Origin: an uncultured Nitriliruptoraceae bacterium
Lineage (GTDB): Bacteria > Actinomycetota > Nitriliruptoria > Nitriliruptorales > Nitriliruptoraceae
Reading direction: 5' to 3'
DNA: 61,450 nt
Assembly (NCBI GenBank): GCA_913060655.1
Contig: CAJXTG010000007.1
Span: 1-61,450, forward strand
The position numbers and the translations under genes are program-made. Below the pieces are notes generated by a model. It made no database searches, was not told the DNA's origin, and was given only the letters and a program-made list of their open reading frames with translations. The number at the start of each line of letters is the position of its first letter. Positions within the stretch are counted from its first letter, which is position 1. Shown here one piece after another: positions 3,807 to 6,917 of this stretch.

Positions 3807-4810
3807 GCACGCACGACCTCGCGGTCCGCGCCGAGGGGCTCGTCAAGCGGTACGGCGACGTGACCGCCCTCGACCGGCTCGACCTCGCGGTGCCGGTCGG
3901 CGGGATCCTCGGCCTCCTCGGCCCCAACGGGGCCGGCAAGACGACCGCGGTGCGCATCCTCACGACCCTGCTGGTCCCCGACGAGGGCCGTGCCGTCGTC
4001 GCCGGCCACGACGTCGTCGACGACCCGGAGGCGGTCCGCGCCCGCATCGGACTCTCCGGGCAGTACGCGGCCGTCGACCAGGACCTCACCGGCCGTGAGA
4101 ACCTCGTCATGGTCGGACGGCTGTGCCGGCTCGGGCTGCGGGGTGCGCGCCGCCGCGCCGACGAGCTCCTCGACCGCTTCGACCTCGTCGACGCCGCCGA
4201 CCGGCCGGTGAAGGGCTACTCCGGCGGGATGCGCCGCCGCCTCGACCTCGCCGGCGCGCTCGTCGCCACCCCGCCGGTGCTGTTCCTCGACGAGCCGACG
4301 ACCGGCCTCGACCCGCGCAGCCGGCTCGGCATGTGGGACGTCATCCGCGAGCTGACCGCCGGCGGGACGACGCTGCTGCTCACCACCCAGTACCTCGAGG
4401 AGGCCGACCAGCTCGCCCGCGACGTCCTCGTCATCGACCACGGCCGGGCCATCGCCCGCGGCACCCCCGACGAGCTGAAGGCGATGGTCGGCGGCGAACG
4501 CGTCGAGGTCGTCGTCCCCGACCGGACGCGCATCGGCGACGCCGCCGCCGTCCTCGCCCGCTTCGCCACCGACGAGGTCCGCACCGACGCGCAGACCGGC
4601 CTCGTCAGCGCGACCGTCACCGGAGGTGCTGCGACCCTCGGCGACGTCATCGCCGCGCTCGCCACGGCCGCCGTCACCGTCGGGGAGGTCGGCCTGCGCC
4701 GCGCCACCCTCGACGAGGTGTTCCTCACGCTCACCGGCGAACCGGCGGGCGACGGTGACACGGCCACCGAAACCGCCACCGACGCCGCCGGGCAGGAGGT
4801 CGGCGCATGA
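3803..4810 (+). CDS. DrrA-type ABC transporter ATP-binding protein
   Basis: 335-residue cytoplasmic ATPase of the daunorubicin-resistance (DrrA) subfamily. Walker A GPNGAGKT is at residues 40-47, followed by the Q-loop (SGQYAAVD), signature YSGGMRRRLD, Walker B LFLDEPTTGLD and a switch region TTQYLEEAD typical of DrrA. A C-terminal domain of about 100 residues ends in the LDEVFLTLTG motif of this family. It couples ATP hydrolysis to export through the permease encoded immediately downstream (ATGA overlap). The substrate is unknown; hydrophobic drugs or lipids are usual for the family. Confidence 0.93.
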   Translation: MSTHDLAVRAEGLVKRYGDVTALDRLDLAVPVGGILGLLGPNGAGKTTAVRILTTLLVPDEGRAVVAGHDVVDDPEAVRARIGLSGQYAAVDQDLTGRENLVMVGRLCRLGLRGARRRADELLDRFDLVDAADRPVKGYSGGMRRRLDLAGALVATPPVLFLDEPTTGLDPRSRLGMWDVIRELTAGGTTLLLTTQYLEEADQLARDVLVIDHGRAIARGTPDELKAMVGGERVEVVVPDRTRIGDAAAVLARFATDEVRTDAQTGLVSATVTGGAATLGDVIAALATAAVTVGEVGLRRATLDEVFLTLTGEPAGDGDTATETATDAAGQEVGA

Positions 4811-5610
4811 GCCGGCTCGGCTGGGCGCTGCACGACGGGCACGTCATCGCCCTGCGCAACATCATCCTCATCCGGCGCGTCCCCGAGGTGCTCGTCGGCG
4901 TGCTCATCTCGCCGATCATGTTCGTCCTGCTGTTCGCCTACGTGTTCGGCGGCTCGATCGACACCGGCGGCGTCAGCTACCGCGAGTTCCTCATCGGCGG
5001 CATCTTCGCCCAGACCGTCGTGTTCGGGGCGACGTTCACCGGCGCCGGCCTCGCCCAGGACGTCCAGAAGGGCATCATCGACCGGTTCCGGTCGCTGCCG
5101 ATGGCCCGCTCCGCCGTCCTCGTCGGCCGCACCGCCTCCGACGTGATCTACAACGTGCTCACCATCGCGATCATGTCGCTGTCCGGCCTGCTCGTCGGCT
5201 GGCGGATCCGCTCGTCGATGCTCGAGGCGCTCGGCGGGTTCCTGCTCCTCCTCGTGTTCGCCTACGCGTTCTCGTGGGTGATGGCGTACGTCGGGCTGCT
5301 CGTCCCCAAACCCGAGGTCGTCAACAACGCGTCGTTCATCGTCATCTTCCCCGCGACGTTCATCGCCAACACGTTCGTCCCGTCGGAGAACCTGCCCGGC
5401 CTGCTGCGCACCTTCGCCGAGTGGAACCCGGTGTCGTCGGTCACCCAGGCCGCCCGCGTCGCGTTCGGCAACACGTCCCCGCTCGTCCCCACCCCCGACG
5501 TGTGGGCGCTGCAGCATCCGGTCGCCTACACGCTCATCTGGGTGGGCGTGCTGCTCACCATCTTCGTGCCGCTGTCGGTGCGGCAGTTCCAGCGGGCCGC
5601 CCTGCGCTGA
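4807..5610 (+). CDS. DrrB-type ABC-2 permease
   Basis: 267-residue ABC-2 membrane protein with six predicted hydrophobic segments. It has an N-terminal LRNIILIRRVPEVL region, the EFLIGGIFAQTVVF segment, the cytoplasmic GIIDRFRSLPMARSAVLVGR motif typical of DrrB permeases, and the FIANTFVPSENLPG...WNPVSSVTQAAR segment before the last helix. The ATG overlaps the ATPase stop, so both proteins are probably made together as a DrrAB exporter. No further operon gene follows; 190 nt separate it from the next start. Confidence 0.93.
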   Translation: MSRLGWALHDGHVIALRNIILIRRVPEVLVGVLISPIMFVLLFAYVFGGSIDTGGVSYREFLIGGIFAQTVVFGATFTGAGLAQDVQKGIIDRFRSLPMARSAVLVGRTASDVIYNVLTIAIMSLSGLLVGWRIRSSMLEALGGFLLLLVFAYAFSWVMAYVGLLVPKPEVVNNASFIVIFPATFIANTFVPSENLPGLLRTFAEWNPVSSVTQAARVAFGNTSPLVPTPDVWALQHPVAYTLIWVGVLLTIFVPLSVRQFQRAALR

Positions 5611-5681
5611 GGTCCCGGTGGCGCGACGACGGCACCGGGGCGGACGGCGGCGGAGGTCCTCCACAGGCCCGCATCGAGCCG

Positions 5682-5710
5682 TTGACCACGTCTGGCCGTC
5701 GCGGTATCTT
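5682..5710 (+). promoter_or_regulatory. Candidate promoter of the Xre/PIN pair
   Basis: TTGACC (5682-5687), a 17-nt spacer, then TATCTT (5705-5710). This is one of the best sigma-70-like matches in the window and lies about 90 nt before the antitoxin ATG. Consensus-based inference. Confidence 0.65.
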
Positions 5711-5722
5711 CGACTTCCGGCG

Positions 5723-5740
5723 CTGAAGGCAGAACTTCAG
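5723..5740 (+). promoter_or_regulatory. Inverted repeat, candidate antitoxin operator
   Basis: A perfect CTGAAG-N6-CTTCAG palindrome sits 12 nt downstream of the -10 box, at the expected start of transcription. A position and size like this suit an autorepressor of the HTH antitoxin type. Binding is inferred. Confidence 0.5.
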
Positions 5741-5800
5741 ACGAGGGCCAGACCGGGTTCCAGAAGGGGCTCCGGGCAGGACGCGAGGCAGGACGCTGCC

Positions 5801-6283
5801 ATGAACGGATCCGAGGCGGCGGCGGAGATCGGCGGACTCCTCCGGCAGGCGCGGCTCGCCCGTGGGCTGAGCGTGCAGGAGGCCGCGGACCTCGCCGAGG
5901 TGTCGCCGAGCCGCATCTCCCAGGTGGAGCGGGCCGAGACCGCAGGGACGCTGCAGCTCGACACGCTCGACCGGTTCGCGACCGCGCTCGGCTACCGCGT
6001 CGCCTATGAGCTCGTCCCCTCGGAGTCCCCCGAGCAGGACCACCATCTGCCCGTCCTCGCGGCGGAGGCGGTCGGCGGCCCCTACCGGCCCGGTCCGCGG
6101 CGGGCGCGGGAGCAGGGCTCAGGGTTCGAGGATCTCATCGCCCGAGGGCTCGCCGTCCCCGCGACGCGCAGCCTGCGTGACCTGCCGCCCCCGATGCCGC
6201 TCAGCCCCGAGGCCATCGAACGGCTCGGCGGGCGCACGGTCAGCGAGCTCCTCATCGAGGAGCGGGAGTCGGACACGCGGTGA
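5801..6283 (+). CDS. Xre-family HTH antitoxin with Phd/VapB-like C-terminal tail
   Basis: 160 residues in two parts. Residues 8-70 form an HTH_3 domain whose end (QVERAETAGTLQLDTLDRFA...LGYRVAYELVP) recalls the HTH of mobile mystery protein A. Residues 108-160 (FEDLIARGLAVPATRSLRDLPPP, then TVSELLIEER) resemble the toxin-binding tail of Phd/VapB antitoxins. ATG 5801 is preceded by a GC-rich leader without a strong ribosome site. Its stop overlaps the PIN gene's GTG (GTGA), as in toxin-antitoxin operons. Role inferred: neutralises the PIN toxin and represses its own promoter through the 5723-5740 palindrome. A plain regulator is the alternative. Confidence 0.78.
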   Translation: MNGSEAAAEIGGLLRQARLARGLSVQEAADLAEVSPSRISQVERAETAGTLQLDTLDRFATALGYRVAYELVPSESPEQDHHLPVLAAEAVGGPYRPGPRRAREQGSGFEDLIARGLAVPATRSLRDLPPPMPLSPEAIERLGGRTVSELLIEERESDTR

Positions 6284-6738
6284 CGGCCGTCACGCTCGAG
6301 CATCCGCCGGCCGACGCCACCACACGTGTCGGCCCGCGGGAGGACTGGTACCTCGAGAGCACCGCACTCGTGAAACGCATCCTCGACGAGCCCGGCTCGG
6401 CGGCGCTGACACGCTGGCTCGATCGGCTGCTCGAGACCGGGGGCAGCTTCTTCACGAGCGACCTCGGGCGCACCGAGGCGTACCGCGCCGTCGCCCGGAA
6501 CGACCCTCACGCGATCCCGGGGGCACGGGTGATCCTCGACAGCCTCCTGCGGGTCCGCGTGGGCGAGCAGACGTACGTCCTCGCGATGGAGCTCGAGCCG
6601 GCCGTGCTGCGGACGCTCGACGCGCTCCACCTCGCGGTCGTGCTCGGCCTCGACGGCCGCTGCGCCGGCATCGTCACCTACGACCGCCGCATCGTCGAGG
6701 CGGCGGGCATGCTCGGCATCCGGACCGTCTCACCCTGA
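6280..6738 (+). CDS. PIN-domain ribonuclease toxin (VapC-like)
   Basis: 152 residues. A PIN nuclease pattern is visible: YLESTALVKRILDEPGS at about 24-40, TEAYRA with Glu66, LDALHLAVVLG with Asp114, and IVTYDRRIVEAA with Asp135. The first acidic ligand, usually Asp in YLDTSALVK, is Glu26 here. There is an unusual 23-residue lead before the domain; GTG 6280 is the only supported start, with GAGGAGCGGGA upstream. PIN toxins cut RNA, often tRNA or rRNA, using Mg2+. Together with the preceding gene it forms a type II toxin-antitoxin pair. Activity is inferred. Confidence 0.85.
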   Translation: MTAVTLEHPPADATTRVGPREDWYLESTALVKRILDEPGSAALTRWLDRLLETGGSFFTSDLGRTEAYRAVARNDPHAIPGARVILDSLLRVRVGEQTYVLAMELEPAVLRTLDALHLAVVLGLDGRCAGIVTYDRRIVEAAGMLGIRTVSP

Positions 6739-6796
6739 AGGTGGGCTGGGCGCCGGGCCGGCGCCCCGAGCGGCGCGGTAGCCTCCACCGGCACCC

Positions 6797-6871
6797 GGCG
6801 GCGTAGCTCAGTGGCAGAGCAAGCGACTCATAATCGCTGTGTCGGTGGTTCGAACCCACCCGCCGCTACCA
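6797..6871 (+). tRNA. tRNA-Met (CAT), probably elongator
   Basis: A 75-nt gene with encoded CCA. The acceptor GGCGGCG/CGCCGCT has one G-T pair; the anticodon stem AGCGA/TCGCT flanks loop CTCATAA (anticodon CAT). The GACTCATAATC surroundings match actinobacterial elongator tRNA-Met better than initiator tRNA; a lysidine-type tRNA-Ile2 is not fully excluded. A TAGCCT -10-like box lies at 6779-6784 without a clear -35. Confidence 0.93.
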
Positions 6872-6917
6872 CCCCGGTCGGCCGCCGCGCCGGCCCGCAG
6901 GGAGCGAGGAGGGGCCG

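Follow-up and report, generated by a model that had tools for sequence, protein, structure and literature searches.

Can a type II antitoxin be assembled from the DNA-binding head of one family and the toxin-gripping tail of another, and can both sources still be recognised? This question is raised by two small genes in a 61,450-nucleotide stretch of DNA from an uncultured Nitriliruptoraceae bacterium (contig CAJXTG010000007.1; hereafter the window), whose genome (G000) is a 1.67-Mb assembly, 96.6% complete. The original prediction took them for a recombined toxin-antitoxin pair, in which the first 70 residues of the antitoxin resembled the helix-turn-helix (HTH) of mobile mystery protein A (MmpA), its end resembled a Phd/VapB tail, and the partner was a PIN protein with an altered metal ligand.

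Results

Layout, promoter and palindrome

The two genes are flanked by an ABC permease gene and a tRNA-Met gene, and both reading frames of the feature predicted at 5682-6738 were recovered in place (5801-6283 and 6280-6738; Table 1). They are co-directional, with the antitoxin first, and the stop of the antitoxin gene and the start of the PIN gene share the bases GTGA, a 4-base overlap. This arrangement of small overlapping genes, kept in three species, is that of VapBC-like type II modules.

Table 1. Features of the HTH-PIN locus, in window coordinates
Feature	Position	Strand	Details
Sigma-70-like promoter TTGACC-17 bp-TATCTT	5682..5710	+	Sole promoter-like match in 5600-6900
Candidate operator palindrome CTGAAG-GCAGAA-CTTCAG	5723..5740	.	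Uniqueness; alignment across sister species
Shine-Dalgarno-like AGGA of antitoxin gene	5790..5793	+	Sequence; 7 nt upstream of ATG
Putative chimeric antitoxin gene, 160 aa	5801..6283	+	ATG start
XRE HTH head, residues 9-68	5825..6004	+	HTH_31 5e-10, HTH_3 5e-9; nearest model TIGR02612
Flexible linker, residues 81-104	6041..6112	+	pLDDT below 50 (AlphaFold)
Phd/VapB-type toxin-binding tail (putative), residues 106-160	6116..6280	+	Purpose-built profile 21.3 bits; hhalign 4.5e-8; pLDDT about 90
PIN-domain toxin gene (putative), VapC-like, 152 aa	6280..6738	+	GTG start; PF01850 9.3e-8; VapC-like model
N-terminal lead of PIN protein, 22-23 residues	6280..6345	+	Low model confidence; lead also in G033
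Glu26 codon, in place of first catalytic Asp	6355..6357	+	Alignment of 48 PINs
Glu66, second acidic ligand	6475..6477	+	Invariant in 32
Asp114, third acidic ligand	6619..6621	+	Alignment
Asp135, fourth acidic ligand	6682..6684	+	Alignment

The promoter and the palindrome CTGAAG-N6-CTTCAG that had been announced upstream of the pair are both there. Against 0.1 promoter-like matches expected in 5600-6900 one is observed, and the palindrome, for which the chance expectation in the window is 0.03 with one mismatch allowed, is predicted to fall at about +6 to +23 of the transcript. Its 16-base core, TGAAG-N6-CTTCA, is found once in the whole of G000, at the HTH-PIN promoter, and once in the genome of a sister species (G032), at the promoter of that species' own HTH-PIN pair. 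Because the palindrome is unique in two genomes, and located at the promoter both times, there is strong evidence for regarding it as the probable cognate operator of the pair. A search of the genome of the other sister species (G033) did not find the core; the aligned palindrome there is partly eroded and still in register, and from the -10 box (CGGTA...T) through the palindrome the three species align without a gap. The distance from the palindrome to the ATG is almost nil in the sister species, the window having some 60 extra bases there.

The head of the antitoxin

The N-terminal domain of the antitoxin is an XRE/Cro HTH, with both HTH_31 (Pfam; residues 9-64) and HTH_3 above their cut-offs. 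In all three species the closest NCBIfam model is that of MmpA, TIGR02612, which gives the head 47 bits in the window and 53 and 40 bits in the other two. For the window protein this match (2.5e-12, 46.9 bits) remains far under the cut-off of 122.6 and is limited to the HTH, at profile positions 28-94 of 150. A genuine MmpA of the same phylum, taken for comparison, scores 135.7 bits over the full length of the model, and the gene after it encodes what, judged by eye, is a Fic-like protein. MmpA identity of the window antitoxin was rejected on its score and its partner, which is a PIN and not a Fic protein. As the protein is below the cut-off, has no MmpA tail and has no Fic partner, its head is MmpA-like only: what stands of the original prediction here is an XRE HTH closest to that of MmpA, a resemblance and not membership of the family.

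In the AlphaFold model of the single chain the head consists of five helices, mostly at pLDDT about 90. The PDB matches of the antitoxin model are HTH antitoxins and regulators such as HigA2, with weak E-values, and HTH proteins are also the only PDB matches of note to its sequence. Downstream of the HTH, the motif P-[VM]-L-A-x-E-x-x-G-G (residues ~79-98, window 6035-6100) is conserved in the three chimeras; it lies outside both the HTH and the tail profile, in a stretch predicted to be disordered.

The tail of the antitoxin

Curated profiles (Pfam and NCBIfam, and PADLOC with the whole protein) leave the C-terminal half without a match, and so a tail profile was built from relatives, namely the tails of 40 Phd/VapB antitoxins encoded ahead of related PIN genes, with the three HTH proteins left out. 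Over the last ~55 residues this profile scores 21.3 bits in the window and 26.2 and 19.7 bits in the two congeners, against a best score of 4.2 bits among 53 control HTH loci (a few duplicated) picked by similarity to the head. None of 3000 shuffles reached the real score for any of the three proteins (shuffle counts, not database E-values). Similarly, hhalign aligns the tail with 26 Phd antitoxins (94.9%, E 4.5e-8), and the alignment keeps its register to the C-terminal end. This short segment contains much Pro and Ala and has an invariant Arg155 near its end; it is modelled with confidence (pLDDT about 90), behind the helical head and the disordered linker. On these alignments, the window tail is a homologue of the toxin-binding segment found in Phd antitoxins that partner related PIN toxins. 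Separate searches of each half, as suggested originally, therefore recovered both, the HTH by Pfam and the Phd/VapB-like tail by the purpose-built profile instead of curated ones.

What is not seen in the window protein is the Phd head. PF02604, the N-terminal DNA-binding domain of Phd, has no match there (Pfam), whilst it matches all 26 Phd antitoxins tested, covering residues 1-42 (the head) alone in the member viewed in full; likewise, the Phd N-half score is about 0 for the window protein and 66-85 for complete Phd heads. A tail-only search covered 396 genomes of the phylum, of which 30 loci were read, and the pair counts depend on that sample: the N-half is Phd in 26 of the 30, HTH in three and apparently frame-broken in one, and a PIN gene adjoins the tail in 29, the remaining locus being at a contig end. 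At the apparently frame-broken locus (L141 in G130) the tail is without a readable Phd head, apparently that of a frameshifted Phd antitoxin, and the PIN gene still adjoins. Tail similarity follows PIN similarity in the window (rho 0.46, 4 of 2000 permutations) and in G033 (rho 0.61, 0/2000); in G032 the relation is weak (rho 0.34, 39/2000) and the control correlation is as strong. That control, of the proteins' own HTH against Phd tails, is weakly positive (rho 0.31, p 0.049 for the window; 0.35, p 0.026 for G032). The locus counts and the tail-PIN similarity together lead to the conclusion that tail and PIN stay together, whereas the head varies.

The PIN protein

The product of 6280-6738 matches PF01850 (Pfam), and its AlphaFold model (pLDDT 90, pTM 0.83) is matched by Foldseek to VapC structures such as M. 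tuberculosis VapC20 and VapBC11 and R. felis VapBC2; by sequence (phmmer, profile) no PIN relatives were found in the PDB. The N-terminal lead of about 23 residues is real, as there is no other in-frame ATG, GTG or TTG before the PIN core, and its residues 1-20 are modelled at pLDDT about 50. The substitution predicted at the first metal ligand is also borne out: in the acidic tetrad Glu66, Asp114 and Asp135 are intact and the first residue is Glu26. This is a rare state: 46 of the 48 PINs collected have Asp at the position, and the two with Glu are those of the window and of G033, whereas G032 keeps the Asp. The enzyme could be weakened, as Glu26 replaces a nearly invariant ligand. Glu can in principle bind metal, and acidic residues in other parts of the H. 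influenzae VapC1 active site are reported to allow some flexibility (PMC4229260); no published test of Asp-to-Glu at the first PIN ligand was found in the literature.

Distribution and evolution

The HTH-tail-PIN unit was seen in three congeners only (three MAGs: G000, G032 and G033), with the order permease, HTH, PIN, tRNA-Met identical in all of them. A fourth congener, 78% complete, has neither the HTH-tail gene nor the PIN gene. The chimera was not found in GTDB contigs beyond the two sister species, among plasmids, among viral contigs, or outside the genus in the 396 phylum genomes. The empty insertion site was unreadable, the permease homologues fetched from other genera having no tRNA-Met in reach.

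Elsewhere in the class and phylum the nearest PIN genes are nearly all preceded by a Phd-type antitoxin, and the HTH-partnered PINs nest among Phd-partnered ones in the PIN tree, with weak support. The AU test (p 0.47) neither establishes nor rejects a single origin of the three. Since nearly all other tail bearers are Phd, we infer that the swap went from Phd to HTH, and replacement of the head in the ancestor of the genus would be the simplest history. A genome of another family (G149) carries the best non-genus relative of the PIN, paired with a Phd antitoxin (L085), and also a genuine MmpA that has a Fic-like neighbour (L059); it is suggestive that relatives of the chimera's two parent modules meet in one genome.

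Between G000 and G033 the products of the two genes of the pair are 57 and 55% identical in amino acids, compared to 90% for the adjacent permease, and their dN/dS is 0.5-0.6 compared to 0.19. In a comparison of window 4807-6738 with L111, L003 and L032, dS is 0.69 for the pair and 0.33 for the adjacent permease. The pair thus differs as if it were evolving fast or had been replaced in place by homologues, and fast divergence of both genes may leave room for relaxed constraint.

Three other loci touch on the same subject. L065 (G108) holds an HTH ORF (1426-1917) overlapping a PIN-like ORF (1893-2312; reverse-strand coordinates), with the PIN visibly different and the HTH tail different, and is apparently an independent Xre-PIN combination. 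In L104 (G380) the antitoxin ahead of a related PIN seems, by eye, to join an RHH-like head to a similar tail, which may be a further case of head exchange. In L060 (G189) the ORF after the HTH gene is nucleotidyltransferase-like, and a PIN gene stands apart, about 600 bp upstream.

Discussion

Both domains, the homology of the tail, its linkage to the PIN, the synteny, the genome-unique palindrome and the overlap of the two genes are observed, and the locus is very probably a VapBC-like, autoregulated type II module whose antitoxin has a swapped DNA-binding head. The recombined system of mixed modules that had been proposed is well supported, as both halves are traced and three congeners keep the pair with the operator at the same position. 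According to this interpretation, the PIN protein would act as a toxic RNase on an RNA target, and the C-terminal ~55 residues of the antitoxin would be the toxin-gripping tail that this PIN subfamily usually meets on Phd/VapB antitoxins, neutralising it by threading into the PIN groove. An XRE HTH head resembling that of MmpA would have taken the place of the Phd DNA-binding head in the ancestor of the genus. The operon would be repressed by the HTH dimer, with or without bound toxin, sitting on the palindrome that follows the -10 box, and degradation of the antitoxin would free the PIN to exert its toxicity. It is tempting to go further and suppose that the genus-specific XRE head on a VapB tail and an attenuated or differently metal-dependent RNase with its Glu ligand co-evolved, the head exchange and the retuning of the toxin going together in a small genome, although we consider this rather unlikely.

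The most serious alternative, itself rather improbable, is a decayed or repurposed module, in which the Glu26 PIN would be inactive or nearly so and its complex with the HTH-tail protein kept as an autoregulated DNA-binding unit or as an immunity remnant. The first ligand is indeed changed in two of the three species, the dN/dS of the pair is well above that of the neighbouring permease, and regulatory roles have been reported for inactive toxin-antitoxin pairs (PMC11826091). The reading frames are, however, intact in all three species, the fold and the other three acidic residues are kept, and the possible metal binding by Glu and the flexibility reported for VapC1, both mentioned above, also speak against it.

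Far less probable is that the HTH gene encodes an unrelated regulator that happens to adjoin a PIN gene, with a tail resembling those of Phd antitoxins in composition only. The lack of a curated match for so short a segment, rich in Pro and Ala, would agree with that, but composition alone would hardly produce scores that no shuffle reaches and no control approaches, an hhalign match in register up to the C-terminus, PIN genes next to 29 of 30 tails and a GTGA overlap. Equally remote is the idea that the locus is a true MmpA/MmpB system in which a PIN took the place of the Fic partner. The rank of TIGR02612 among NCBIfam models in all three species speaks for this, whereas the scores of 40-53 bits are confined to profile positions 27-94 (the HTH), MmpA positions 95-150 find no match, the genuine MmpA of the phylum is matched in full with a Fic-like protein behind it, and the tail is of Phd/VapB type.

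The swapped-head module would be a clean natural case of an antitoxin made of a DNA-binding head and an exchangeable neutralising tail, in which the tail family, the exchanged head, the operator and the genomic site are all identifiable. It also points to a blind spot of annotation: curated profiles cover antitoxin heads and not tails, so that such a chimera would be annotated merely as an XRE regulator. In addition, two sister species with Glu at the first ligand and a third with Asp offer a natural comparison for the metal chemistry of PIN proteins.

Amongst known systems, the Phd-PIN VapBC modules (PF02604 with PF01850) share with the pair the PIN subfamily, the antitoxin tail, the antitoxin-first order, the short overlap or spacing and the autoregulatory layout; their N-terminal Phd/YefM half, however, is here replaced by an XRE HTH and a flexible linker of ~25 residues. 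MmpA HTH with MmpB Fic provides the nearest curated model for the head, but the window protein is sub-threshold, is without the MmpA C-terminal half and neighbours a PIN instead of a Fic protein. Xre-PIN pairs, which likewise join an XRE antitoxin to a PIN toxin, were catalogued in 2009 (Makarova et al. 2009; 67 pairs), PIN-Xre being under-represented (PMC2701414); for the window pair, the source of the tail is followed back to the Phd antitoxins that partner its own PIN subfamily. According to the NetFlax work, fusing a linear neutralising motif to a DNA-binding domain should be enough for a toxin-antitoxin operon, and the C-terminal region of Phd, when fused to SUMO, neutralised its cognate toxin Doc (PMC10440598); that fusion is engineered and sets a Phd tail against Doc, whilst the window chimera is natural and its partner is a PIN. 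As Xre-PIN pairs and antitoxin modularity were described before, this locus is an instance of a known principle, and what is newly seen is a head swap, specific to one genus and open to tracing, on a VapB tail of known type.
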